Shown: positions 11,681 to 25,499, counted from the stretch's first letter. The stretch is DNA of 50,253 nt from Sphaerobacteraceae bacterium (GCA_007695115.1 REEK01000125.1:1-50253), one strand, 5' to 3'. The notes: generated from the sequence alone by a model not told the origin. A program made the numbers and translations.

Positions 11681-11734
11681 GCCCGAAAGTGTCCATTCCA
11701 GTAGCTGGACGGCTACACACTGTTGGGAACGTCG

Positions 11735-14700
11735 ATGAATGATGAACAGGCGCGTTTCGAACACGTGGTGGTCATTGGTGCGTCGTCAGGCGGCATCGAT
11801 GCAATCTCGCGGCTTTTAGAATCCATCCCAGCGGAGTTCTGTGCTCCTGTCATCGTCGCTCAGCATTCCGATCCCCGGCGTCCGAGCCAATTCGTGTCGA
11901 TTCTTTCCCGGCGTACATGCCTGGCGGTACGTGCGCTCGAAGAAGACATGGACCTCGAAACGGGCGTCGTCTACGTCGTTCCAGCAAATCGTGCGGTCGA
12001 GTTTACTGAATCGAACGTGAAGGTTAACCCGGAAGGGAACGGCAGGCCACTCCCGTCGATCGATCGCCTGCTCAGCGATGCAGCCGAGGTATTCGAGGAG
12101 CGCCTGATTGCCGTCGTTCTGACCGGTAACGGCTCCGATGGGACATCCGGTGCGTTTCAGGTCAAGAGTCGAGGCGGAACCGTTATTATTCAGGATCCGC
12201 AGACGGCGGAATACCCCGAGATGCCTCGCTCACTGGCGCCGACGACGGTCGACTTCGTCCGGGATCTGAAAGAGATCGGTCCGCTACTCGATGCCCTGAC
12301 CGATCCTCAGGCTGTCTGTATTCCGGATTCAACAGATGAGGGGGCAGATCTTTTCGATTTCCTCCAGCACCTTCAGATCCAATGCAATGTTGACTTCAAT
12401 CAGTACAAGACACCCACGATCAAGCGACGTCTCCGTCGGCGTCTCGTGGCAACGAGGTGCGATGATTTGACCCAGTATCGTAAGTATCTCGCTCAGACGC
12501 CTGACGAGTACTTCCATCTGGTAAACAGCTTCCTGATCAAGGTCACCCATTTCTTCCGGGATAGCGAAGTTTACGATTACCTCCAATCGGTGGTGTTGCC
12601 AGCAATCATTCAGGAGAGTCGTGAGCGCGGTCACCGCGACCAGGGGTACCAATTGCGCATCTGGTCCGCAGGGTGCTCGACCGGTGAGGAAGCGTATTCC
12701 CTGGCGATTCTGGTGGCCGAGGCGCTCGGCGAGGAACTGTATCAGTTCAACATCCGCATCTTCGCGACAGACATCAATCCAGAGTCTATTGAGTTTGCCC
12801 GGCGCGGCATCTATCCCCATGCATCGGTCAGCGGAATGCCGGGAGAGTTGCGTTCCAAGTATTTTTCCTGTGATGATGGTGATTTCGAAATTAGCAAACT
12901 CATCCGGAGCATGGTGGTATTCGGGCATCATGATCTTGCCCAGCGATCCCCGTTTCCGAATATCGATCTCGTTCTGTCCCGGAACGTCCTTATCTACTTC
13001 ACGCCCGAGCTCCAGCGGCGTGCTATGAGTCTTTTCGCTTACTCGCTTAGAGAAAACGGATACCTGGCGCTTGGCAAGGCGGAGACCACGAGCCCGCTCG
13101 GTGAACATTTCTCGACGGACAATCAGCGACTCAAGATCTATCGCCGGAATCTAACCGAGGTTCCGATTCCGCCTGGGTTGAGCCAGACGGCATTGCTTTC
13201 GTCCCGCAGTCCCTCACGTATCAGTACCTGGAATCGGCCTCAGATTTCCGGAGTCGACGCGAAACTCCAGGAAACTGGCAGTACCCGTGGTCTGCCTGAT
13301 CGCACGGAGAACCTGCTGTACCATATGCCGGTGGGTATTGTGGTGATTGACCGGAACTACGATATCCGGGCGATCAATAACCTCGCCCGGCGCTTCCTGG
13401 GAGTTCATGGGGCGGCCGTGGGCGATGACCTCTTGCACGTGATCCGGACGATAACGCTCGACGCACTGCGAGATGCGATCGATGAAGCGTTTCGCTGGTC
13501 GGAGCCAGTCACGGTTGCGGGAGAGCATCGAGTCGAGACGATCGAAGGTGAGCACCTGTACATCGAGATCACCTGCCAGCGTCGGGATCTCGAGTTAAAG
13601 GGGCAGCCCAGCCACACCGTTATCGTAGTGCTTACCGATGTAACCGAGGTAACGGTTGAACGCCACAAAGTTGCCGAAGCACGGGACCAGGCCATTGAAG
13701 AAAACCAGCAGCTGAATAACCGCCTTGGGCAGTTGCTCCGCTCCAACCAGCAGCTGGTGGGGGCCAATGAGGAACTCACCAGAGTCAATGAGGACCTTCG
13801 TATCAACAATGAAGATCTCCTGGTTTCCAGCGAGGAGGCCCAGTCCTCAGCTGAAGAGATCGAAACGCTGAACGAAGAGATGCAGACGACGAACGAAGAG
13901 CTGGAGACGCTGAACGAGGAGCTGCAGGCCACCGTTGAAGAGCTGAACGCGGCTAATGAGGAGATGCAGGCTCGCGCCACGGAAATGCAGCAACAGCGCC
14001 TGGCTAGCGATGTGGAACGCGCGAAGCTCGAGGCTATTCTGGTGAGTATGGATGACGCGGTCGTGGTGATGGATGAGGACGGTCGGACTCTGCTCGTCAA
14101 CGATGCATTCAAGCAGATGTTCGGCGATGACCTCAGTTGCATCACGCCGGAGACCGAAACGGGTTCGCCAATGCCAGATTCCAAGTCGCCCAGGGCAGCG
14201 GCACTCCGCGGAGAGTCATTCACCTTGCCGTTCACTGTGTCTGGACCTGACGGAAGTCGTCGCTGGTTCGAAGCGAATGGCGGTCCGATCGACAACGCCG
14301 GGTCAGTCACTGTAATACGCGAGATTACCGATCGCAGCCTGCGACGGCTCCAGGAGGAGTTCATGTCGATTGCGAGCCACGAACTGCGTACACCATTGAC
14401 GGCACTTCAGGGTTATCTGAACATGCTGCAGAAGCACATTTCGTCTGACAGCGAGCGATCCCGGCGATTCGTCAGTGTTGCGTTGACCATGGTGGACCGC
14501 CTTACGCGGATGACCAGCGAGTTGCTCGATGTCAGCCGCTTGCAGTCTGGAAAGTTTGCGTTATCGCTGGAACCGATCCAGCTCGATGAACTCATCCGTC
14601 AGACGGTAGAGCTCGTGCAGTCGACGACACCCGACCGTGAGATCCACGTTGAGTTGCCGGATGCGGCATTGCAGGCACAGGTTGACCCGATGCGTATTCA

Positions 14701-15022
14701 GCAGGTGTTTTTCAATCTGCTCCTGAACGCGGCGAGCTATTCGGACGCTGAAGAGAAAATCCACATCCGACTGATGAGCGAGGGCGATCACGCGGTGGTT
14801 CAGGTTCAGGATCATGGAATGGGTATCCCCGAAGAGACGCGCGCAGAGATCTTCAACCGTTTCTATCAGGGCGAACGTGGTTCAGGAGGGACGAATCGCG
14901 GGCTTGGCCTTGGGTTGTACATCAGCCGGGAGATCGTAATTGCCCACCAGGGAGAGATTTCCGTGGAATCGACGCCGGGCGAAGGGACAACGTTTTCCGT
15001 TCGCGTTCCCCTTGTGGCATGA
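11735..15022 (+). CDS. CheB-CheR-PAS-coiled coil-PAS-histidine kinase fusion
   Basis: About 1095 residues. Order: CheB methylesterase (about 7-190; Ser17, His44, Asp135 in GSDGTSG), CheR SAM-dependent methyltransferase (about 205-475; RIWSAGCSTGEEAYS, FATDIN, SRNVLIYF), PAS (about 520-640), a long Glu/Asn-rich coiled coil (about 640-765; repeats of TLNEELQ type), PAS (about 770-870), HisKA with phospho-acceptor His882 in IASHELRTP, and a HATPase (NLLLNAASYS, DHGMGIP, GLGLGLY). It joins opposing receptor methylation and demethylation activities to a soluble kinase; there is no membrane segment or receiver. Homologous fusions are known in many phyla but their targets are mostly undefined. ATG at 11735 is preferred to an in-frame TTG at 11723. 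No response regulator lies nearby. Confidence 0.92.
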   Translation: MNDEQARFEHVVVIGASSGGIDAISRLLESIPAEFCAPVIVAQHSDPRRPSQFVSILSRRTCLAVRALEEDMDLETGVVYVVPANRAVEFTESNVKVNPEGNGRPLPSIDRLLSDAAEVFEERLIAVVLTGNGSDGTSGAFQVKSRGGTVIIQDPQTAEYPEMPRSLAPTTVDFVRDLKEIGPLLDALTDPQAVCIPDSTDEGADLFDFLQHLQIQCNVDFNQYKTPTIKRRLRRRLVATRCDDLTQYRKYLAQTPDEYFHLVNSFLIKVTHFFRDSEVYDYLQSVVLPAIIQESRERGHRDQGYQLRIWSAGCSTGEEAYSLAILVAEALGEELYQFNIRIFATDINPESIEFARRGIYPHASVSGMPGELRSKYFSCDDGDFEISKLIRSMVVFGHHDLAQRSPFPNIDLVLSRNVLIYFTPELQRRAMSLFAYSLRENGYLALGKAETTSPLGEHFSTDNQRLKIYRRNLTEVPIPPGLSQTALLSSRSPSRISTWNRPQISGVDAKLQETGSTRGLPDRTENLLYHMPVGIVVIDRNYDIRAINNLARRFLGVHGAAVGDDLLHVIRTITLDALRDAIDEAFRWSEPVTVAGEHRVETIEGEHLYIEITCQRRDLELKGQPSHTVIVVLTDVTEVTVERHKVAEARDQAIEENQQLNNRLGQLLRSNQQLVGANEELTRVNEDLRINNEDLLVSSEEAQSSAEEIETLNEEMQTTNEELETLNEELQATVEELNAANEEMQARATEMQQQRLASDVERAKLEAILVSMDDAVVVMDEDGRTLLVNDAFKQMFGDDLSCITPETETGSPMPDSKSPRAAALRGESFTLPFTVSGPDGSRRWFEANGGPIDNAGSVTVIREITDRSLRRLQEEFMSIASHELRTPLTALQGYLNMLQKHISSDSERSRRFVSVALTMVDRLTRMTSELLDVSRLQSGKFALSLEPIQLDELIRQTVELVQSTTPDREIHVELPDAALQAQVDPMRIQQVFFNLLLNAASYSDAEEKIHIRLMSEGDHAVVQVQDHGMGIPEETRAEIFNRFYQGERGSGGTNRGLGLGLYISREIVIAHQGEISVESTPGEGTTFSVRVPLVA

Positions 15023-15149: not shown

Positions 15150-16190
15150 ATGTCCAACACACCGCGACGCAAACCATCTGACCCAATTCTCGAGATGAAG
15201 ATTCCGCGAGTCTACGGCAGTACGCCGACGCTATTTGGATCGCCGTATGCATCGAACATCGAGACGCTGAAGGAAGGCAATATCGCGTTCCTCGGGATTC
15301 CGTGGCGCGCTCCGACACCTGACACCCGGATCGGCCGGTCCGGAGCGAACTACGAGGGCACACTGTTGACGCCCTCCGCGTTTCGGGCGAGCGCAATCAA
15401 GTATGGTGGCTATCTGCCCGAACTCGATGTCGATGTCTTCGACCACTTTCATTTCGTCGATCGCGGCGATTTGCCAATCCCGGGTGACATGGGCCAGCTT
15501 CTGGATGATGTTGAAGCTGAGATCAACACGATGCTCGACGCTGATTGCTATCCGGTGACAATCGGCGGAAATTCGGGGCCATCCACCTACGGTGTGTTGA
15601 AACCGATCGCCGCCCGCTCGAATGGGTCAACCGCGGTGGTCAATTTCGATGCGCACCATGACAACCAGCTTGGAGAGTGGACCGAGGATGATCCGACGAT
15701 GCCCAGATGGGGATCGACCTGGGCACGGCAGATTCTCATGCTGGAAGGCGTCGATCCGGCGAAGTACTATCATGTCGGCCTTCGTGGCCCCCGCAACGAC
15801 CGCGACACGTTCGCGCGATTCCTTGAGCGCGGCGTGAAGCGAGAGAACATCTTCACCTACCGGGAGATCAAAGCAGCACGTCGAAATGGTTTCGATGGGT
15901 GGGCAGAGGTCACCGCCGCGGAGATCGTAGACGGTGCCAGCAAGGTCTGGCTGACGATCGATCCGGACGTCTTCGATGTCTCCAGTAATCCCGATTTTGG
16001 CGATGAGCCGCTCGGACCGCGGGCCGAAGAGATCATCGAGCTGGCCTACCAGATCGGTCGCGCAGCCGGACCGCAGAAGTTCGCCGGGTTCTCGATCTCT
16101 GCCACGCCATACGACGCGCAAACGCTCCACGGCATACTGATTTACATGTTGCTCTATACCCTGGCCGGGGTGGCATCTGCATCTGAGTAG
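15150..16190 (+). CDS. Ureohydrolase-family (agmatinase/arginase-like) protein with altered metal site
   Basis: 346 residues with the arginase/agmatinase fold, which normally hydrolyses guanidino compounds to urea plus an amine using two Mn2+. Second-metal ligands are intact: Asp167, His169, Asp171 in FDAHHDN, and Asp271, Asp273 in TIDPDVFD. The usual GGDHS motif is replaced by GGNSGPS (residues 139-145), so the His ligand of the first metal is missing. N-terminal features FLGIPWRAPTPDTRIGRSGANYEGTLLTPSAFR match the family's G-(V/I)-P and R-x-G-x-R-x-GP-x-AIR regions only loosely. The start has a strong AGGGGGG box. It converges on the DmdA/GcvT-like genes. It may have a changed substrate, a mono-metal site, or no hydrolase activity. 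Confidence 0.82.
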   Translation: MSNTPRRKPSDPILEMKIPRVYGSTPTLFGSPYASNIETLKEGNIAFLGIPWRAPTPDTRIGRSGANYEGTLLTPSAFRASAIKYGGYLPELDVDVFDHFHFVDRGDLPIPGDMGQLLDDVEAEINTMLDADCYPVTIGGNSGPSTYGVLKPIAARSNGSTAVVNFDAHHDNQLGEWTEDDPTMPRWGSTWARQILMLEGVDPAKYYHVGLRGPRNDRDTFARFLERGVKRENIFTYREIKAARRNGFDGWAEVTAAEIVDGASKVWLTIDPDVFDVSSNPDFGDEPLGPRAEEIIELAYQIGRAAGPQKFAGFSISATPYDAQTLHGILIYMLLYTLAGVASASE

Positions 16191-16218
16191 TGCGGCGCTC
16201 CCGTGCGCAGAAACAGCT

Positions 16219-16350
16219 GGTAGACCGGGCAGCGGAGCTTGCACTGAGCGAAGCCGAATGTGTCTGCCCCTCGCAAATCAGGCCGGTTCGCGGGCCGGGG
16301 CGACACGGAGAGCCTGCCCTGAGCGACGCCGAATGGGTCGCCGGTCTACC
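16219..16350. repeat. Short MITE-like element with 10-bp terminal inverted repeats
   Basis: Bounded by GGTAGACCGG (16219-16228) and CCGGTCTACC (16341-16350), a perfect inverted pair. Inside are two direct copies of a motif: 16232-16264 (GCGGAGCTTGCACTGAGCGA...) and 16303-16342 (core GCCTGCCCTGAGCG). A close inverted copy of the second lies at 40621-40659. No coding capacity. It fills the gap between the convergent ureohydrolase and DmdA-like genes, where it could act as a bidirectional terminator. Confidence 0.6.
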
Positions 16351-16373
16351 GGTCAGCGCCAATGACAACCGGC

Positions 16374-17480
16374 TTAATCCATAAACGGCAACGCCACGAG
16401 TCTGCCGGTGGCAACTCCCCCAGGATGCCCCACCCTGACCTCTCTATCGAGTTCAGTATCGGCGGTAACGACTGCGGAGCCAATCGTTTCTCCCAGATAC
16501 CACGACTGTTTGACACGCGTGACGAGCCCTGACCCGTCTTCGATCGGCCAGAACTGTTCGATCGGCGGGAGTTCGGCCTCGGAGCCAAAACGGATACCGA
16601 CGAGTTTTCGCTCGGGACCAGCTTCGACAACCCCCTCCAGTGCCTCTTTCCCGACGAATGGACCTGCATCGAGATTCACCGCGCGTTCCAGTCTCGCTTC
16701 GAACGGATTCAGATCAAGACCGTGACCGTAGGTCCAGTCCGTGACTCCCCGCTCGAAGAATGGGCCGATCATCGGGGTGATCATGAGGCCGTGCGGTTCG
16801 CCTGCTTCGGTGACCGCATCCCAAACACGGAGCGCGTCAGCGGGATCCAACGGAAACACTTCGAAACCGAACGCGCCGGTGTACCCGCTCCGGACGATGA
16901 TCGTTTCCACGCCGGCAACCCTCGCCTGAACCCAGCCGAAGAACTTCATGTCCACGGCGTCTGGAGCCAGTTCCTGCATGATCTCGTAGGCACGTAGTCC
17001 CTGGACGGCCAGCGGATAAACCTGCGTCTGGAACACGTCCACGTCGAAATCACTATGTGCGTTGATCGCGTTGGCCCATTGCAGGAAATCCACCGGGCCG
17101 TGACAGATCCAGACTCGATCCTCTGATAGCTTCAAGACGAGCGCCTCACAGAAGATCACGCCGTTGGGCTCACAGATCGCCGTGTGTCGAGCTCGCCCAG
17201 GCTTCATCGTCCTCAGATTGCGGGCACAGAGGTAATCGGCAAAGTTGAGAGCGTCTGGACCACGAAGCTCGACACTCCGCTCACACCCGACATCGATCAG
17301 CACCGCACGCTCATGGATCGCCTGGTATTCCTCCGCCGGATCACGCCCGTAGCTGATCGGCCAGTAGGTGTGGTTGTAGTCATAGTACTGGATGGCGCCG
17401 GCTTCTTCGGTCCTCGGAAAATACGGCGATTTCGTGATATGTGCCCTCAAAACTTGTGTGCGACGCGGTGCATTTGTCAT
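16374..17480 (-). CDS. GcvT/DmdA-like aminomethyltransferase-family protein, copy 1
   Basis: 368 residues of the folate-dependent aminomethyltransferase (GcvT) superfamily. The N-terminal pattern SPYFPRTEEAG...YNHTYWPI...ERAVLIDVGCERSVELRGPDALNFADYL is closer to the DMSP demethylase (DmdA) branch than to the glycine-cleavage T protein. RSGYTGAFGFEVF matches the GcvT signature for the THF-binding domain, followed by NPFEARLERAVNLD and the small C-terminal beta-barrel (LVGIRFGSEA...). No glycine-cleavage gcvH/gcvP nearby. It probably transfers a methyl or methylene group from an N- or S-methyl compound to tetrahydrofolate; the substrate is not identifiable. A tandem paralogue is at 17753, with a creatininase-family gene upstream. 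Confidence 0.82.
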   Translation of the reverse strand: MTNAPRRTQVLRAHITKSPYFPRTEEAGAIQYYDYNHTYWPISYGRDPAEEYQAIHERAVLIDVGCERSVELRGPDALNFADYLCARNLRTMKPGRARHTAICEPNGVIFCEALVLKLSEDRVWICHGPVDFLQWANAINAHSDFDVDVFQTQVYPLAVQGLRAYEIMQELAPDAVDMKFFGWVQARVAGVETIIVRSGYTGAFGFEVFPLDPADALRVWDAVTEAGEPHGLMITPMIGPFFERGVTDWTYGHGLDLNPFEARLERAVNLDAGPFVGKEALEGVVEAGPERKLVGIRFGSEAELPPIEQFWPIEDGSGLVTRVKQSWYLGETIGSAVVTADTELDREVRVGHPGGVATGRLVALPFMD

Positions 17481-17570
17481 AGCAGTGATTCACAATCATG
17501 AACGCGGAACGTCGGTCTTCCTCGTTCACCATTGAGCAAGTTCAGGACCGCTGGGCGTTGGGGGAAATCT

Positions 17571-17710
17571 ATGTAGGGGTCGGCGCCTACATCGTGATTC
17601 GTTCGCGAGACAGCGGCCCTCACCCCCGACCCCTCTCCCAAAACTGGGAGAGGGGAGGAGAAACGGTGTGGCGGGTGCCTTTCCCAATGATGGGAGAGGG
17701 GAGGAGAAGG
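17571..17710. repeat. Composite palindromic repeat between the two DmdA-like genes
   Basis: Starts with TGTAGGGGTCGGCGCC (about 17572-17587), then the long form of the GGCCCTCACCCCC element (17615-17660, hairpin CTCTCCCAAAACTGGGAGAG), then a conserved GTGTGGCGGG spacer and a second hairpin TTCCCAATGATGGGAGAGGG (17681-17700). The same order of element, spacer and second hairpin recurs at 19858-19945. Non-coding. Confidence 0.8.
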
Positions 17711-17752
17711 GGCGCGGTGGGTGCCTGTTTGTCGTTACAACGTCAGGGCATC

Positions 17753-18874
17753 CTAATCCATAAACGGCAACGCCACGAGTCTGCCGGTGGCAACGCCCTC
17801 TGGATGACGGACTTGGACCTCTCTGTCGAGTTCGGTATCGGCGGCTACGACTGCGGAGCCAATCGGCTCTCCGAGATACCATGACTGCTCGACGCGGGTG
17901 ACGAGTCCTGACCCGTCTTCGATCGGCCAGAACTGCTCGATCGGCGGGATCTCGGCACCGGGACCAAAGCGAATGCCAACGAGCTTTCGCTCAGGGCCAG
18001 CTTCGGCAATCCGCTGCAGGGCTTCTTTCCCGACGAATGGACCGGCATCGAGGTTCATCGCTCGTTCGAGTCTTGCCTCGAACGGATTCAGGTCGAGATC
18101 GTCTCCGTAGGTCCAGTCCGTGACTCCCCGCTCGAAGAACGGACCGATCATCGGAGACACCATGACATCGTATTGCTTGCCGGCATCGGCCACCGCATCC
18201 CAGGTCCGGAGCGCTTCAGCCGGATCGAACGGAAACACTTCGTAGCCGAACGCGCCAGAGTACCCGCTCCGAATGACGATGGATTCCACCCCGGCAACGG
18301 TTGTCTTGATCCAGCGAAAGAACTTCATGTCCGCCGCTTCAGGTACCAGTTCCTGCATGATGTCGTAGGAACGCGGCCCCTGGACGGCAAACGGATAGAC
18401 CTGCGTCCGGGTAACTTCCACATCGAAATCGCTATGTGCGAGGATCGCTCCTGACCATTGCGTGAGGTCCACCGGCCCGTGGCAGATCCAGACCCGGTCT
18501 TCGGCCAGTTTCATGACCAGCGCCTCGCAGTAGAGCACGCCATTGGGCTCACAGATCGCTGTGTGTCGAGCTCGCCCAACCTTCATCGTCTTCAGATTCC
18601 GGGCACACAGATAATCGGCGAAGTTCAGCGCATCAGGACCACGAAGCTCCACGCTCCGCTGGCAGCCGACATCCATCATGACCACACGCTCGTGAATCGC
18701 CTGATATTCCTCCGCTGGATCACGCCCGTAGTCGATCGGCCAGTAGGTGTGGTTGTAGTCGTAGTATTCGATCGCTCCGGCTTCTTCGGTTCTCGGGAAA
18801 TACGGCGATTTCGTGATCTGCGGATACAGAACCTGTGGTCGGCGGTGCCTGATATTCAAGGCGGGGATTTCCAA
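17753..18874 (-). CDS. GcvT/DmdA-like aminomethyltransferase-family protein, copy 2
   Basis: 373 residues, clearly a tandem duplicate of the gene at 16374: the same SPYFPRTEEAGAI...YDYNHTYWPI start of the fold, DVGC(Q/E)RSVELRGPDALNFADYLCARNL, RSGY(S/T)GAFG(Y/F)EVFP, FFERGVTDWTYG, DLNPFEARLERA and an identical LVALPFMD C-terminus. Differences are spread through the protein rather than in one block, pointing to an older duplication. The start is uncertain: the longest reading begins with TTG at 18874 without a good ribosome site, and another TTG is in frame five codons on. Either the paralogues form a heteromer or they split substrate range. THF-dependent C1 transfer is inferred from the family. 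Confidence 0.8.
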   Translation of the reverse strand: MEIPALNIRHRRPQVLYPQITKSPYFPRTEEAGAIEYYDYNHTYWPIDYGRDPAEEYQAIHERVVMMDVGCQRSVELRGPDALNFADYLCARNLKTMKVGRARHTAICEPNGVLYCEALVMKLAEDRVWICHGPVDLTQWSGAILAHSDFDVEVTRTQVYPFAVQGPRSYDIMQELVPEAADMKFFRWIKTTVAGVESIVIRSGYSGAFGYEVFPFDPAEALRTWDAVADAGKQYDVMVSPMIGPFFERGVTDWTYGDDLDLNPFEARLERAMNLDAGPFVGKEALQRIAEAGPERKLVGIRFGPGAEIPPIEQFWPIEDGSGLVTRVEQSWYLGEPIGSAVVAADTELDREVQVRHPEGVATGRLVALPFMD

Positions 18875-18949
18875 TCGTTAGTACGGCAATTATTCGTCCT
18901 CGGCCAAAAGTTGCGCAAGTTCAGGGCCGTTGGGCGTTCGAGCGGTTAC

Positions 18950-19786
18950 CTACGGACAATGCGACCCGAACTCTCTGTACCCACGCACTGGCTGTTCGTG
19001 GTACTCCCGGCAGACCTTGATCAGCATCTCCTTCGCCGCGTTGAAGAGACGTTCGCCTTTCTCGGCAGACGCGGTGTGCGGGTTGCCGTGAACGCCGTGC
19101 TGGCGCTCTTTGCGACGTTCCGGGAAGCCGGTGAATTCAAGAATCTCCGGGCTGAAGCCGGGGCGTTCCGGATCGGCCACGAGCTTCTCGGTATCGATCA
19201 GGCTCGGTCTCAGATGGAGTTGTAGCGAGGTCTCCCACTCGCCACCGTGGCCGATGAAGCCGGGATCGGTGTCGGATTCGTCGTCCAGAACATCCTGGGC
19301 CATATCCCAGTAGGTGATCGGCAACACCCAGATGTCTTCCTCGGCCAGCTTGATCGAGATCACCCGCTGGATGTCCCGGTTGCCGCCGTGGCCGTTGAGC
19401 AGGATGATCCGGTGGAAGCCGTTGGCCCAGATGCTCCGGCAGATCTCGGAGACGTAGGCGATGAAGGTCTCGACGCTCAGCGTGATCGTGCCGACCTCGC
19501 CCATGTTGTAGTGGGTCAGGCCGGCCCAGACCGGTGGCGCGACGATTACCGGGAAGTCGTCGATCGCCCGGGCGGTATCAACGGCCAGCGCCTGGGTGTG
19601 GCTGATGTCGACGTCCATCGGGCAATGCGGACCGTGCTGCTCGACTGAGCCGACCGGCACGATAACCACCGGATCATGTTCCAGCGCTTCCAGGAACTCG
19701 TGCCGCCACATCTCCTGCCAGTGGGGCGTCTTGCCGTCGTTCGATTCCCGCTGTCCTCGTCCGAAGACAGAGCTGTCCGAGACCAT
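18950..19786 (-). CDS. Creatininase-family amidohydrolase
   Basis: 278 residues of the creatininase family (creatinine amidohydrolase, formamidopyrimidine deformylase, MftE and relatives), metal-dependent C-N hydrolases that act in the cytoplasm, often as hexamers. Metal ligands are visible: Glu49, His51 and Asp60 in VGSVEQHGPHCPMDVD, the His in LLNGHGGN, and the Glu of HGGEWETS, which replaces the usual HAG-x-x-ETS. Length fits the family. It lies 75 bp upstream of DmdA-like copy 2 on the same strand, so the two are probably co-transcribed. True creatininase activity cannot be told from other family activities by motif, but N-methyl/guanidino chemistry fits the neighbours. Six-residue IANGF-type helix segment ICRSIWANGFHRIILLNGHG is fully conserved. 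Confidence 0.88.
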   Translation of the reverse strand: MVSDSSVFGRGQRESNDGKTPHWQEMWRHEFLEALEHDPVVIVPVGSVEQHGPHCPMDVDISHTQALAVDTARAIDDFPVIVAPPVWAGLTHYNMGEVGTITLSVETFIAYVSEICRSIWANGFHRIILLNGHGGNRDIQRVISIKLAEEDIWVLPITYWDMAQDVLDDESDTDPGFIGHGGEWETSLQLHLRPSLIDTEKLVADPERPGFSPEILEFTGFPERRKERQHGVHGNPHTASAEKGERLFNAAKEMLIKVCREYHEQPVRGYREFGSHCP

Positions 19787-19857
19787 CGTGATCCTCCGTT
19801 CGGGTGATTGTGACTGGTTAACGGGAGTACCATAAGGGAACAGGATGGATTGCGATA

Positions 19858-20000
19858 GGCCCTCACCCCCGGCCCCTCTCCCAACGTTGGGAGAGGGGGG
19901 AGAAACAGTGTGGCGGGCGTCTTTCCCAAAACTGGGAGAGAGGGGGCATCAACTGGAAAACCTCTGTAGGGGTCGGCGCCCCTGCCGACCCGGGGGCCTT
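19858..20000. repeat. Composite palindromic repeat, long form
   Basis: GGCCCTCACCCCC element with hairpin CTCTCCCAACGTTGGGAGAG (19858-19900), conserved GTGTGGCGGG spacer, second hairpin TTCCCAAAACTGGGAGAGAG (19923-19942), then TGTAGGGGTCGGCGCC at about 19964-19980 and a GC-rich tail. Same modules as at 17571 with the TGTAGGGG module on the other side. The rest of the 264-bp gap between the creatininase and MFS genes shows no gene. Confidence 0.8.
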
Positions 20001-20050
20001 CGCACACCGGGTGCACAGGGTCGTGCGCCCCCACATCGGAGGTGACCTTC

Positions 20051-21316
20051 TTACCACGTCTGTGGGCGGCCGAAGATGATTCGTCGCCAGGGGACAGTCC
20101 AGGCGACACCCATTGCGCCGATGAGCACCACGATCCCGGTCAACAGGAAGACAGTCGCGAGCGACCACTGGCTGGCGATCACACCGAGCAGAACCGGACC
20201 TCCGGCCGAGCCGACCGCCGCCGCCATGCGGTAAATCCCCATTGCGGTGCCACGGGTCTGGTTGGTGGAGATTTCGGCGATGAATGCCTGTCCAGCGGTG
20301 ACGAAGCCTCCGAACCCGATCCCCTCCAGCGCCAGGAAGATCGTCAGCAGCGTGGCGTCCGTAGTCTGGCTGATTCCGATGAGCGAGAGCCCCATGATCA
20401 CCAGCGAGATTGTCATCACTCCGGATGTGGTCAGCGTGTTCGCCAGAATCCCCATCGGAATGCGCACGCCGGTGGAGGCAAACGCTCGGACGGAGAACAT
20501 GGTGGCGATGAACCCGGCGCTGATGATGGCGACATTCTGTGCATAGAGCGGGAAGAAGTTCTGGATCGCACCCATGAATGCGGTGCTCTGCAGGAACACG
20601 GCGACGGATGTGATCAGTAGCGGTGGATAGAGCAGAACCTGGAAGAATCCGGTGCGGGCTTCCGGTTCATCGGTTCCGGATTCGGTCGGGACTGGTTCCT
20701 CTCGGGGCGGGTCGTGCGGGAGAAATCGGAGGCCGAAGAAGAAGCCGGCGATCGCCACCATCGCGGCGAATCCATAGCTCCAGGCGATACCGAAGTTGTC
20801 GGCAATCGGGCCACCGATCAGCGGCCCAACGGCGAAGCCGAGCCCCATCGCCGTGGCGTAGAGGCCGAAGGCTGGACCCCGTTCTTCGCCCGAGGTGATG
20901 TCTCCCATGTAGGCGGCGCCGATGCCGAACGTCAGGATGATGGCGGCACCCATGAGAATCCGGCCGGGAAAGAGCAGGTAGGGATGATCCACGATCGCGA
21001 AGCTGATCAACGCCACGGTCCAGACAATCATCCCGAACAATAGCACTCGCCGTCGGCCGATCCGGTCCGAGAGCATCCCGGATGGAATCGCGGTGATCAT
21101 CGAGGTTATGCCGACGGCCGAACTGAGAACGCCGATCAACACGAGCGAGGCGCCGAGTCCCTGGGCATAGATCGAAAAAGTGGGTATGACGATGCCGCTG
21201 AGGGTGTCTGCCATGAAGATGAACACGCAGAGGGCGACGATATCTCGCCGTTGCAGTACCTGCTTGAAACCTCTGAACACACCACCCGCTTTTGCGTCAG
21301 AATCGTTTAGTATCAC
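20051..21316 (-). CDS. MFS transporter (12-TM)
   Basis: About 421 residues from a GTG at 21316 preceded by AGGTAAC; the open frame runs 157 codons further upstream, but that part overlaps the divergent LLM gene and has no transporter features. Twelve predicted membrane helices in two halves are joined by an acidic loop (PREEPVPTESGTDEPEAR). The loop 2-3 signature GMLSDRIGRRRVLL is canonical for the major facilitator superfamily, and GPLIGGPIADNFG marks helix 5. Similar to drug/metabolite exporters of the DHA type, but direction and substrate cannot be read. It sits in the catabolic island with the creatininase and hydrolases and may move their substrate or product. Confidence 0.88.
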   Translation of the reverse strand: MILNDSDAKAGGVFRGFKQVLQRRDIVALCVFIFMADTLSGIVIPTFSIYAQGLGASLVLIGVLSSAVGITSMITAIPSGMLSDRIGRRRVLLFGMIVWTVALISFAIVDHPYLLFPGRILMGAAIILTFGIGAAYMGDITSGEERGPAFGLYATAMGLGFAVGPLIGGPIADNFGIAWSYGFAAMVAIAGFFFGLRFLPHDPPREEPVPTESGTDEPEARTGFFQVLLYPPLLITSVAVFLQSTAFMGAIQNFFPLYAQNVAIISAGFIATMFSVRAFASTGVRIPMGILANTLTTSGVMTISLVIMGLSLIGISQTTDATLLTIFLALEGIGFGGFVTAGQAFIAEISTNQTRGTAMGIYRMAAAVGSAGGPVLLGVIASQWSLATVFLLTGIVVLIGAMGVAWTVPWRRIIFGRPQTW

Positions 21317-21430
21317 GTTACCTGTGGCGACAACCTGCCGGGGCGTTGCCGTCGTGGATTGTACCGCTCCCCGGCGACGCAGTAATTGTGACGAGCCAGG
21401 CATTTGAAACCTTAACCTCAGATCGCGGGA

Positions 21431-22417
21431 ATGGACGAAACCTTGCCGGGAGCAACAACTGGAAGTCGAAACCTTCGGATCGGATTGATTCCGCCACATG
21501 GCGAGAACTGGCCAGATCGCCCGGCCGCTGGCTGGGCCGAGATCCTGGATTTTGCCATTGCGGCTGAATCGGCTGGATTCGACGGAATCTGGCCAGCGGA
21601 CGAGTTCTTTCGCACAACGGGGAGAATCGATGTCGCCGTTGATGAGGCGGATGATCCAGCAATGCAGGAGACGTACCCGGCGGCGTTCTGGGATTCCTGG
21701 ACGTTGCTTGCCGGAATAGCGGCCCGGACGTCGCGCATAGAGATCGGGACGTTGATCACATCCAATACCTATCGAAATCCTGCCCATCTTGTGAAGATTC
21801 TGGAGACCGTCGACGAGATCAGTGGCGGCCGGGTGGTAGCCGGGCTCGGGCCGGGTGGTGATCCCGCTGAGGGCAGGATGTTCGGATACGAATGGGAGCG
21901 GCCGGTCTCCAGGTTCGAGGATGCACTTCCAATCATTGCCGGGCTATTGCGCGAAGGGTATGCAACACATCATGGATCGTTCTATCAGGTGGATGGATGT
22001 GTAAACCGTCCACAGGGTCCACGCCCGGGACGTATTCCGCTGCTTATCGCGACGTTTGCGGCTCGTCCACGAATGTCGCGTCTGGCGGCGCAGTGGGCCG
22101 ACATCTGGGAGCACTCGATAGCTTTCACCGAGGATCAGCCGGCAGAGGCCCGGCGACGGGCGGAGTTGACCAGACGCACTTGTGAGCAGTTTGGTCGAGA
22201 TCCGGCAACGCTTGAGATGGCGCTGAGTATCAGCGTGGCAGTGAGAGATCGGACAATCCCCGGTGCGAACCCGCTCGTCGGTGATCCCTCGGCGATTGCC
22301 GCTGCGATCAACGATTTTCGAGAACTCGGATTCACCCGGATTCAGGTGTTACTTACCCCACCCACTGTGGACGGGGTAGAGGCGTTTGCACCGGTGCTGG
22401 AGCTGCTCGATCGTTAA
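21431..22417 (+). CDS. LLM-class flavin-dependent oxidoreductase
   Basis: 328-residue luciferase-like monooxygenase/F420-or-FMN-dependent oxidoreductase with a TIM-barrel fold. Motifs: AESAGFDGIWPADEFF near residue 45, ARTSRIEIGTLI with TSNTYRNPAHLVKILETVDEISGGRVVAGLGPGG near 95-145, and LIATFAARPRMSRLAAQWADIWE near 200. The divergent MFS gene starts about 115 bp away, so they may share a control region. F420 use is common in this phylum but cannot be decided from sequence. It ends 13 bp before the convergent M20 gene. It may oxidise a small N- or S-containing substrate of the island, but that is a guess. Confidence 0.88.
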   Translation: MDETLPGATTGSRNLRIGLIPPHGENWPDRPAAGWAEILDFAIAAESAGFDGIWPADEFFRTTGRIDVAVDEADDPAMQETYPAAFWDSWTLLAGIAARTSRIEIGTLITSNTYRNPAHLVKILETVDEISGGRVVAGLGPGGDPAEGRMFGYEWERPVSRFEDALPIIAGLLREGYATHHGSFYQVDGCVNRPQGPRPGRIPLLIATFAARPRMSRLAAQWADIWEHSIAFTEDQPAEARRRAELTRRTCEQFGRDPATLEMALSISVAVRDRTIPGANPLVGDPSAIAAAINDFRELGFTRIQVLLTPPTVDGVEAFAPVLELLDR

Positions 22418-22430
22418 CCAGACCGCTCAA

Positions 22431-23702
22431 CTAATCAGTAACCCCGCACCAGTCGATCAGCAGAGTGGCGATGGTCTTCGCGGCGGTCTGGATGTCGCTG
22501 ATCGAGATATGCTCGTCGTTCTGGTGAGCCACTGAGACATCTCCGGCACCGTAGATGATGCACGGCATGTTTCCGATCTCCGTGTAGAGCCGCATATCCG
22601 TGCCGGCGGTGATTCCGGTAACGATTGGCGCCTGACCTGTCACCTGTTGATGAGCGCTGGCGAGTGCGGTTGGCAGTGGTTCGTCAGGTCTGGTTTCGCC
22701 GGGCGCAAACTGACCGCTGAAGAACTCAACGTCCGGTGGATGCTGCGACAGCCAGAAGTCCTGCTTTGCGGCGTTCAGGACTCGCTGGCGGACGGCTTCC
22801 TGAAATTCGTGCATGTCTTCGCCCGGCAGCAGGCCGATGCGACCTTCGGCGATCAGTGTTTCGGGAACCGTGGAGTGCCACTCTCCGGAGCGTACCTTGC
22901 CGAAACTGATCGGGATCTTGTTGGCGGCATCGGCAAACAGCGGGTGATCCAGGCTGGCGTTGCGTTCGGCTTCCCAGCGCTGGAGATCCTGAAAGATCGG
23001 GATGAATTTCTCGACGGCCGATACGCCTTCGTCCCGCATCGCGCCATGGGCCGATTTGCCGGTGACGGTTATCCGGGCCACCAGCGATCCGGCCTGAGCC
23101 GCGACGATCGCCAGTCGGGTGGGTTCACTGATCACCACGCCGTCAGCCCGGTGACCGCGCAGAATGGTGCCGAGCGATCCGAAGCCGCCGTCTTCCTCGC
23201 CGACCGTCGCCGCGATCTTCACCTCGCCCGCGAGTTTGATCCCCGCTGCGTTCAGTGCATCGATTGCCAGCAGAAAGGTGGCCATTCCACCCTTCATGTC
23301 GCAGGAACCACGGCCGTAGAGGAGATCGCCTTCGACCGCGCCGGACCACGGACCGTGCTTCCAGAAGGAAGCGTCACCCGGATCGACGACATCGATGTGG
23401 CCGTTGAGCATAATCGAGCGGCCATTCCCGGCTCCAGCCAGTGTTCCGACGACGTTCGGCCGTCCTTCATAGGAGGGTTGGTCACCGACGTGTTCCATAT
23501 AGGGAAGGATGTCCTCGCGGGATGTCTCCCACCGGTCGATCTGCAGGTTGCGTGTCTCGAACAGAGACTGCACCTGATCCTGCACGGCGCCTTCGTCCCC
23601 GGTGACCGAGGGGATGCGTACCAGTGATTGCAGGTCGGCGATCAATTGATCACGGCGGTTATCGATCTCGGTGAAGACGCGTTGCAGGCGATCGTTGGTC
23701 AT
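22431..23702 (-). CDS. M20 metallopeptidase (ArgE/DapE-type deacylase)
   Basis: About 423 residues from the ATG at 23702, which has GGGAG six bases upstream; another ATG lies 13 codons earlier. Zn-dependent amidohydrolase of the acetylornithine deacetylase/succinyl-diaminopimelate desuccinylase family. Ligands and catalytic residues are visible: His in LNGHIDVVDPG, bridging Asp in GRGSCDMKGG, catalytic Glu-Glu in TVGEEDGG, Glu in VISEPTRL, and C-terminal His in AHQNDEHIS. The dimerisation domain (ITVTGKSAHGAMRDEGVSA) is complete. It would remove an N-acyl or N-carbamoyl group from an amino acid. Same strand as the arginine-deiminase-fold gene upstream, separated by a repeat. A named biosynthetic role is unlikely here because no arg or dap genes are nearby. 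Confidence 0.9.
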   Translation of the reverse strand: MTNDRLQRVFTEIDNRRDQLIADLQSLVRIPSVTGDEGAVQDQVQSLFETRNLQIDRWETSREDILPYMEHVGDQPSYEGRPNVVGTLAGAGNGRSIMLNGHIDVVDPGDASFWKHGPWSGAVEGDLLYGRGSCDMKGGMATFLLAIDALNAAGIKLAGEVKIAATVGEEDGGFGSLGTILRGHRADGVVISEPTRLAIVAAQAGSLVARITVTGKSAHGAMRDEGVSAVEKFIPIFQDLQRWEAERNASLDHPLFADAANKIPISFGKVRSGEWHSTVPETLIAEGRIGLLPGEDMHEFQEAVRQRVLNAAKQDFWLSQHPPDVEFFSGQFAPGETRPDEPLPTALASAHQQVTGQAPIVTGITAGTDMRLYTEIGNMPCIIYGAGDVSVAHQNDEHISISDIQTAAKTIATLLIDWCGVTD

Positions 23703-23795
23703 ACGGGCTCCCGTCTGGTCCAGGCAATCGGCATCGCTCATATCTCGCCGACGATTGTAGCCGGAGCGGTGTGAAGAGGTACAGGGGGTCTGAAT

Positions 23796-23885
23796 CTCTC
23801 CCCTCTCCCAGTATTGGGAGAGGGGCCGGGGGTGAGGGCCGTTTTCCCTGAGCAATCGGGCCGGAGCCGAGGCGCCGGCCCCTAC
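23796..23885. repeat. Palindromic repeat, reversed copy
   Basis: Hairpin CTCTCCCAGTATTGGGAGAG followed by GGGGCCGGGGGTGAGGGCC (to 23840): the element seen at 6510, here reversed. The linked CGGCGCC/CCCCTA module is found in reverse at about 23869-23885. The rest of the 208-bp gap has no gene. Confidence 0.8.
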
Positions 23886-23910
23886 CGCGCATCGTCGCTC
23901 TCGTGTCGCC

Positions 23911-24795
23911 CTACCTGATAAACGCGTTCTTTCGCAGAATCGGGCGGGTGAGACAGGTTGGCCCACCGGTTCGATTGTGGGAGATCTCATCTCCGGTGTA
24001 GGTCTGAACGGTACAGCCGACATCTTCCAGTCGCTGTGCCGTGATCGGATTTTCTTTGAGCAGCAGGCAATTGCGCGGCCCGAGTGCCAGCACATTCGGC
24101 CCCTGGCTGGCGAACTCTTCTTCGGGGACATCGACGAAGGCGATACCGCGGCGATCGAGTTCCTGTACGAAAGCCGTCGCCATCAGTGGGCGATAGACGA
24201 CCGCCAGGTTATCGTCGACCATGCTGATCATCGAGAGCAGGTGCAGGCAGTCCGACGGGCCGGTCCAGTGGGGCAGATCGTAGACCAGCACGTCGACTCT
24301 CTGCGGTCGAAGTAGTTCGGTCAGTTGCCGGATGCCTTCCTGGTTTGTCCGGTAGCCGCGTCCCACGGCGAGCGTATGCTGATCGACCCAGAGGCAGTCG
24401 CCACCTTCGACTTTGCCCGGCCGCTCGATCCGGCCGACGATCGGAATCCCGAGGTCTCGCATCGTCTCTTCGGCAAGGTCGACTTCCAGTTCTCGCTGTC
24501 GCTTGCCCATCTGGAGCAGAATAGCGCCCGCGTCAGTAATCAGTACCGGATCAAATGGGAAAATCGCGTCTTGCAGCTGGGGGTTGTCGATCTCTCCGGT
24601 GATTACCTCCGCACCGGAATCACGCAGGATCTTGCGGAAGGCTTCGTGTTCGGCTACCGCCTTCTCGTGTTCCATCGGCCCCAGATACGACATCTCTTCC
24701 CACGACACACTGTTCTGGTGGGGAACTGGTGGGTAGACCAGCACACGTTTCAGGGTTCCGACGACGGTGTGACCTCCGAATGATCGATCTGTCAT
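23911..24795 (-). CDS. Arginine deiminase/dimethylargininase-fold hydrolase
   Basis: 294-residue pentein-fold enzyme (arginine deiminase, DDAH and amidinotransferase superfamily), which attacks a guanidinium carbon with a Cys. Catalytic pieces: Glu-Gly-Gly-Asp in KVEGGDCLWVD, His in SDCLHLLSMIS, and nucleophile Cys in TGGPTCLTRP. Length (about 290) fits DDAH rather than true arginine deiminase (about 400), so dimethylarginine or another N-substituted guanidine is a reasonable substrate. ATG is preceded by GAAGGAAGG, a strong ribosome site. It lies 93 bp downstream of the DUF6884-like gene and upstream of the M20 gene, all on the minus strand, suggesting an operon. It supports a guanidino-compound theme in this island. 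Confidence 0.88.
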   Translation of the reverse strand: MTDRSFGGHTVVGTLKRVLVYPPVPHQNSVSWEEMSYLGPMEHEKAVAEHEAFRKILRDSGAEVITGEIDNPQLQDAIFPFDPVLITDAGAILLQMGKRQRELEVDLAEETMRDLGIPIVGRIERPGKVEGGDCLWVDQHTLAVGRGYRTNQEGIRQLTELLRPQRVDVLVYDLPHWTGPSDCLHLLSMISMVDDNLAVVYRPLMATAFVQELDRRGIAFVDVPEEEFASQGPNVLALGPRNCLLLKENPITAQRLEDVGCTVQTYTGDEISHNRTGGPTCLTRPILRKNAFIR

Positions 24796-24888
24796 GATTG
24801 CCTTCCTTCGCGTAGTTTTCCGGAACGCGAGACCAACTGTCGAATGCTCCTGGCATTGTACGCCCGTGATGAGTCGTTCGCGAAGGGA

Positions 24889-25380
24889 TCAACCGATCAA
24901 TGGCTCGCGAGGTTCGAGACGGGGGATGCCCGAATCGCCGACCTCGATGGCGTGCTTGATGACGTGCATGGTGGTGCCCAGCGGGAGATCCCGGAACGGG
25001 AAGACCGTGAGCACGCCGGTGTTTTCGAAGGCCAGATCGACCACCCAGCGATACTCCTTCGAGCCGAGTCCGACTGCGACACGAAACGTATTGAGCCGGT
25101 ATTCCTCGATCTGTTCCTTCAATGTATCCAGATGCACCGGGTTGGTTGATTGCTTTCGGAACGAGACGTCGTACGGCCCGGGGATGGTGAAGTTTGGCTG
25201 GATGAAGCCGTACTTCGGGCTGAGCATCATCCAGCGATCGGCAAATCGCTCGGCATAGGCGCGGTTCAGCTTGAATGGCGTCCCGTAATAAGCCCGGTAT
25301 GCCTCGGTGGGGCCGGCAGATGGATCCTGATCCCAGATCGTTGCTGAACCACAGGGCACGATAACGAGAATGTCGTTCAC
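24889..25380 (-). CDS. Small DUF6884-like protein
   Basis: 163 residues from a GTG at 25380 preceded by AGGAAG (7-8 bp), where the conserved region begins; the frame extends 37 codons upstream without good initiation signals. The pattern VIVPCGSATIWD, GPTEAYRAYYGTPFKLNRAYAERFADRWMMLSPKYGFIQPNF, PGPYDVSF resembles DUF6884, a family distantly like YaaA. The Cys of VPCGS and the SPKYG motif are the most conserved features. No membrane segment or signal peptide. First gene of a probable minus-strand group with the arginine-deiminase-fold and M20 genes. Function unknown; I cannot tell whether it belongs to the pathway. Confidence 0.65.
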   Translation of the reverse strand: MNDILVIVPCGSATIWDQDPSAGPTEAYRAYYGTPFKLNRAYAERFADRWMMLSPKYGFIQPNFTIPGPYDVSFRKQSTNPVHLDTLKEQIEEYRLNTFRVAVGLGSKEYRWVVDLAFENTGVLTVFPFRDLPLGTTMHVIKHAIEVGDSGIPRLEPREPLIG

Positions 25381-25499
25381 GGGATGCTTCCTTACGTCAG
25401 GCCGAACATCGGTCGCGGTTCTCGGATTATCTTCGATTATGTGCGCAATGTCGCTGACCCGATAGTAGGAAATTGGGTGGTGGCCGGACAATGAGGAAA

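Follow-up and report, generated by a model that had tools for sequence, protein, structure and literature searches.

Ureohydrolases hold their metal centre with six ligands, four Asp and two His, and Ala at these positions abolishes activity (PMC11399263, PMC11271267); in addition, the pocket residue E320 of MetCa is essential, and MetCb of the metformin hydrolase is altered at five of its six metal residues (PMC11271267). That annotation as a creatininase can conceal a formamidase also has a precedent (PMC9478397). The known creatinine pathway leads from creatininase through creatinase to sarcosine oxidase. Arginine deiminases are separated from DDAH by a His-x-Asp motif.

Here a locus carrying members of these families is compared with the described systems. 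It lies on a 50,253-base stretch of DNA (termed here the window), which is the whole of contig C134 of a Thermomicrobiaceae-type metagenome genome of the Chloroflexota (3.68 Mb, 98.5% complete, 186 contigs). The closest named relatives are Thermomicrobiaceae metagenome genomes with the label CSSed16, which we take to denote soda-lake sediment (Cock Soda Lake, Kulunda Steppe); judging by this label, the window organism is a soda-lake-sediment bacterium. An initial annotation had proposed that nine genes within about 10 kb form a single catabolic island for guanidino and N-methyl compounds, in which a creatininase opens a ring, an amidinohydrolase fold releases urea, and a pair of GcvT-like proteins passes the N-methyl group to folate. 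The analysis given here suggests instead, with somewhat better than even confidence, that separate small nitrogen and one-carbon salvage units lie side by side in the stretch, most likely brought to one locus through rearrangement within the genus. What is novel here is confined to variant clades within known families and to a genus-specific operon.

Genes of the locus

All nine gene families named in the initial annotation are borne out by Pfam, each above its curated cut-off, although the 'flavin oxidoreductase' is more precisely of the LLM/F420 type. The features are as follows.

15150..16190, plus strand: arginase-fold protein, termed UREO (Pfam Arginase, 94.3 bits; alignments, tree and AF2 model)
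16374..17480, minus strand: DmdA/GcvT-like copy 2, a tandem duplicate not found in relatives (Pfam GCV_T and GCV_T_C)
17609..17723, no strand: palindromic interspersed repeats between the two GcvT genes
17753..18874, minus strand: DmdA/GcvT-like copy 1, with homologs in three other genomes of the genus (Pfam GCV_T and GCV_T_C)
18950..19786, minus strand: creatininase-family hydrolase, not a creatininase sensu stricto (Pfam Creatininase, 198 bits)
19858..19946, no strand: palindromic interspersed repeats between the MFS and creatininase-family genes
20051..21280, minus strand: MFS transporter, first gene of unit A (Pfam MFS_1; start placed from homologs)
21431..22417, plus strand: LLM/F420-type oxidoreductase, a divergent single gene (Pfam Bac_luciferase)
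22431..23702, minus strand: M20 amidase/deacylase of the ArgE/DapE type, downstream of the pentein (Pfam Peptidase_M20 and dimer domain)
23785..23846, no strand: palindromic interspersed repeat between the pentein and M20 genes
23911..24795, minus strand: DDAH-like pentein hydrolase (Pfam ADI, 87.8 bits; DDAH_eukar, 52 bits)
24889..25380, minus strand: DUF6884 protein, upstream of the pentein (Pfam DUF6884, 43.1 bits)

The reading frames originally listed for the MFS (20051-21787) and M20 (22431-24131) genes are overlong at their 5' ends, homology beginning near 21280 and 23702, respectively; that of the DUF6884 gene, listed as 24889-25491, probably starts at 25380. UREO, both GcvT-like proteins, the creatininase-family protein and the pentein score below every curated NCBIfam cut-off, and the M20 protein exceeds the cut-off of the ArgE/DapE deacylase model TIGR01910 (302.4 versus 217.6). 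Among 21 genomes of the family, the oxidoreductase has no close ortholog (best match 46%), and the DUF6884 gene, a genus-level feature, occurs in three.

Conservation of the neighbourhood

The UREO, GcvT-like, creatininase-family and pentein proteins were searched against 158 genomes of the class, the oxidoreductase and DUF6884 proteins against the 21 genomes of the family, and UREO and the GcvT clade also against 400 genomes of the phylum; several of the genomes compared are fragmented and incomplete, so that absences are soft. Co-occurrence in relatives was the check that the initial annotation had set for its own refutation. Across the 158 class genomes the full nine-gene set is not kept as a unit: its pieces are conserved separately and lie on different contigs. 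The sister genome G110, which at 98% is the most complete relative, has every window gene except a close oxidoreductase ortholog, and distributes them over three contigs, namely UREO, DUF6884, pentein and M20 (inside about 5.3 kb, with DUF6884 upstream of the pentein as in the window), MFS with GcvT, and the creatininase-family gene. In G109, UREO, GcvT and creatininase-family genes occur together on a contig that ends beyond them, with no pentein match in that genome; G108 has the MFS, creatininase-family and GcvT genes, with UREO and the pentein unmatched; and G107 has the pentein and M20, with UREO, GcvT and the creatininase-family gene unmatched. UREO adjoins GcvT and creatininase-family genes in two genomes and DUF6884, pentein and M20 genes in one, and its position relative to the pentein-M20 pair switches sides between the window and G110. 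The locus accordingly resolves into five separate pieces: MFS, creatininase-family and GcvT genes (unit A); pentein and M20 (unit B); UREO alone; the oxidoreductase; and the DUF6884 gene.

Of the nine genomes of the order that have UREO, seven also have the creatininase-family gene, more than expected by chance (p 0.008, a value that ignores kinship); in the same order the pentein co-occurs at chance level both with the creatininase-family gene (Fisher p 0.49) and with UREO (Fisher p 0.33), tests that likewise ignore kinship. The first of these associations, along with a cluster in genome G152 (see below), may mean that part of the set is truly linked.

The single island of the initial annotation, to which the pentein and M20 enzyme would contribute side steps, is favoured by the presence of all its parts inside 10 kb of the window, by the near-complete gene complement of G110, and by urease, found in all five genomes of the genus, which could use the urea released. 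Urease would make urea usable whatever its source. The dispersal of the set in relatives argues against the island, as do the active-site changes described below and an Rfam scan of the window at the gathering threshold, in which no match, a guanidine riboswitch included, was found; the island is therefore considered improbable.

The pentein and its M20 partner

The pentein is found in 61 of the 158 class genomes and has the catalytic residues of DDAH: each of C281, H185 and E130 is retained by at least 93% of 31 homologs (the Glu and His having been aligned to Pseudomonas aeruginosa DDAH, and the Cys placed by motif). Two Arg residues that presumably bind a carboxylate, R101 and R149, are also conserved among these homologs. 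Like P. aeruginosa DDAH (1h70/3rhy), the protein keeps the Cys, His and Glu as well as an Arg-Thr-Asn motif, and its His-Leu-Leu is DDAH-like, in contrast to the His-x-Asp of arginine deiminases; unlike that enzyme, it is distant in sequence (103.1 against an NCBIfam dimethylargininase cut-off of 340) and is paired with an M20 amidase. The pentein-M20 pair occurs in six genomes, including G107, G110, G106, G114 and, at 48% and 41% identity, G065 from another family; two further genomes have a different M20 gene after the pentein, and in several others polyamine-type ABC ATPase genes come after it.

The catalytic residues are thus intact and the pairing recurs. The most likely reading of unit B is that the pentein would hydrolyse an arginine-type substrate at its guanidino end, yielding a ureido acid and either ammonia or an amine, and that the M20 enzyme would take off an acyl or peptide part.

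The arginase-fold protein

UREO is present in nine genomes of the order (at least 54% identity) and in two from a different family within the phylum (f31). Its AF2 model (pLDDT 83.7) has a clear ureohydrolase fold, superposing on 8ryi with Z 33.4 and an rmsd of 2.5 over 296 residues, and on 9fek with a TM score of 0.74; the top matches, metformin hydrolase and guanidinase, have nearly equal Z and show a shared fold, not a substrate. With the ureohydrolases (agmatinase, guanidine hydrolase (9fek/7esr), metformin hydrolase, formimidoylglutamase) it has in common this fold (VIA Z about 28-33 against non-arginase ureohydrolases), the Pfam Arginase domain, and the DxHxD and DxD motifs, which are kept throughout the clade (DAHHD in the window protein). 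It differs from them in its low identity (about 20-24%), in scoring below all NCBIfam cut-offs, and in the clade-wide loss of two residues. First, a GGN[SA]G motif (GGNSGPST in the window) replaces GGDHS in 11 of 11 aligned members, so that the first metal-binding His is Ser or Ala in every one and the other five ligands are kept. Second, the substrate-pocket Glu that other ureohydrolases carry in a C-terminal EVxP-type motif is Ser, Met or Gly; we infer that E320 of MetCa is the Glu aligned with this position. These losses weigh against the proposed release of urea by this protein.

One explanation of such losses is that UREO and the GcvT-like proteins, which have likewise lost catalytic or binding residues, are degenerate, non-catalytic partners resembling MetCb. 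This is most unlikely: UREO retains five of six metal ligands and is itself conserved across families, a paired active arginase gene was not seen beside it, and Asn stands at the corresponding position in formimidoylglutamases. Bacillus subtilis HutG, a formimidoylglutamase, carries GGDNS there, and a Trypanosoma cruzi formiminoglutamase entry bears the title N114H variant. Formimidoylglutamases thus tolerate the loss of this His, so that UREO may be an active hydrolase of the usual sort, and the loss would not conflict with its acting on a formimino substrate. In the preferred reading its reaction would be metal-dependent hydrolysis of an amidine/formimino or ureido bond, more likely than of guanidine, and UREO may sometimes work alongside unit B.

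Elsewhere in the same genome (G000), contig C157:43148-44008 (L002; L209:10978-12123) encodes a ureohydrolase with the canonical GGDHS, which clusters in the tree with the guanidinase of Nitrospira inopinata (100/99 support). This protein is a likelier guanidino hydrolase of the organism than UREO, so that guanidine hydrolysis, if any, need not involve the window.

The surroundings of UREO vary from lineage to lineage; in some, ABC transporter genes of the branched-chain type (named by eye) lie close by. More distantly, a 10-kb contig of G152 (C38; L093 146-10428) contains a His-less arginase-fold gene in company with a DUF1989 gene, a polyamine-type ABC transporter, a pentein and an M20-type gene; the arginase-fold, pentein and M20 genes are distant homologs of those in the window, the pentein being of the His-x-Asp kind and the M20-type gene scoring just below its Pfam cut-off. 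On a Sodalis plasmid (L195:5947-8255) and on an Azospirillum plasmid (L196:5941-8339), a His-less arginase-fold gene adjoins an M20 gene of the hydantoinase/carbamoylase type and an amino-acid ABC transporter. Arginase-fold, M20 and sometimes pentein genes thus keep company in nitrogen-scavenging clusters.

These clusters, along with the 5.3-kb grouping in G110, raise the question of whether arginase-fold protein, pentein and M20 enzyme (with or without DUF6884) constitute one guanidino/ureido module, to whose side rearrangement in this lineage would have brought the LLM gene and an operon unrelated to it (MFS - creatininase-family - GcvT). Such a module is possible, but we regard it as doubtful: most genomes with UREO have no pentein or matching M20 gene nearby (G109, with UREO and no pentein match, is an example), the two co-occur at chance level, and UREO changes sides relative to the pair. 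What survives of the guanidino role first proposed is its pentein part: the intact pentein paired with M20, and the closeness of both genes to an arginase-fold gene in G110 and, through distant homologs, in G152, make guanidino/ureido salvage plausible for part of the stretch. The whole set is not upheld as a unit, and residue and family-score tests contradict the route through creatininase, UREO and GcvT at all three of its steps.

An arginase-fold clade without the metal His and the pocket Glu, present in the Chloroflexota and with distant relatives in Sodalis and Azospirillum, could hold a new activity within a well-studied superfamily.

The MFS, creatininase-family and GcvT-like genes

The gene order MFS - creatininase-family - GcvT occurs in the window and in G108, with MFS - GcvT in G110 and GcvT plus the creatininase-family gene in G109. 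Unit A is confined to the genus of the window, and only in the window is GcvT tandem-duplicated; the copies are recent duplicates (83% nucleotide identity over 1067 bases, 80% at the amino acid level). Close relatives of the GcvT-like proteins were found in four of the 158 class genomes, all of one genus, and a wide contig search for the clade returned nothing beyond the three known members of the genus. In a genome-wide search with GCV_T, the window pair and an ordinary gcvT on contig C176 were the sole matches; neither a sarcosine oxidase alpha nor a dimethylglycine dehydrogenase fused to GCV_T was among them. Neither creatinase nor sarcosine oxidase is seen in the stretch, as the initial annotation had stated; a creatininase-family member is all that it has in common with the known creatinine pathway.

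The GcvT-like proteins have the GCV_T (about 121 bits) and GCV_T_C (28-30 bits) domains common to DmdA, the DMSP demethylase, and GcvT. In the tree they fall within the DmdA-like half, as a long branch of their own with 1.84 changes per site. They differ from DmdA as follows: the window pair scores less than half the cut-off of DmdA model NF009133 (191.7 and 174.9 versus 410 bits); the DMSP-interacting Trp (W171 in PMC7487153; W197 as counted in the printed 3tfh sequence) is Tyr in four members of the clade and Phe in one; and an Asp (D96 of Thermotoga maritima GcvT, D108 of DmdA) that is kept in 59 of 59 other homologs is Glu in four members and Gln in one. Copy 1 (17753..18874) has Glu at this otherwise invariant position. 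A predicted structure was poor (pLDDT 58) and was left unused. Tandem pairs of divergent GcvT-like genes also occur in many genomes of one family of the phylum (f24; L147-L165).

The creatininase-family protein scores 112.6 bits against a cut-off of 235 for the creatininase model TIGR04448. In all 21 aligned sequences of its clade the creatininase active-site set is incomplete: E122, presumably a metal ligand, is Gly, and W174, which we take to cover the substrate, is missing along with its loop. The same 21 sequences keep the positions of E34, H36, D45, H120, W154, H178 and E183, seven positions that are likewise kept in creatininase (1j2t), in MftE and in the riboflavin-pathway formamidase of Sinorhizobium meliloti.

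Ring opening by this hydrolase and transfer of an N-methyl group to folate by the GcvT-like pair, as originally envisaged, are therefore both contradicted by these tests. With UREO included, three of the four anchor enzymes deviate at active-site positions, a warning that gene proximity and family names alone are a poor guide to pathways.

In place of these steps, the preferred reading of separate units would assign unit A the following roles: the MFS transporter would import a small methylated or amide-bearing compound, the creatininase-fold enzyme would cleave a C-N bond of the amide or formamide type, and the GcvT-like protein would handle a one-carbon group, perhaps with folate. This is the most likely scheme for unit A, and the adjacency is seen, in part, in three genomes besides the window. 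A bolder version, which we hold only tentatively and consider rather unlikely, is that unit A is an undescribed one-carbon salvage route with a GcvT fold in which Glu or Gln stands for Asp, and that the five-ligand arginase-fold clade beside it hydrolyses a substrate other than guanidine.

Genes of the creatininase family are widespread, occurring in many genera of the class. In 13 genomes of nine genera (L029-L045) the gene adjoins a DgaE/SelA-like PLP gene, with no GcvT homolog beside it; this PLP enzyme is its usual neighbour class-wide, unlike in the window, and in the window genus the PLP gene is present but lies away from the creatininase-family gene. Among the papers searched, none was found on the pairing of creatininase-family and SelA-like genes.

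Other features of the window

Sigma-70 promoters and terminators in the window show no excess over shuffled sequence. A foreign origin of the genes was considered and rejected, their GC and GC3 being within or near the range of the other window genes. The intergenic palindromic repeats are 41-51 nt long (CCCCTCTCCCA..TGGGAGAGGGG) and lie in gaps of both operons; such interspersed repeats may be sites of rearrangement. Adjoining UREO, at 11723-15022 of the window, is a large CheB/CheR-PAS-histidine kinase fusion, which is also found in G109 (73% identity).
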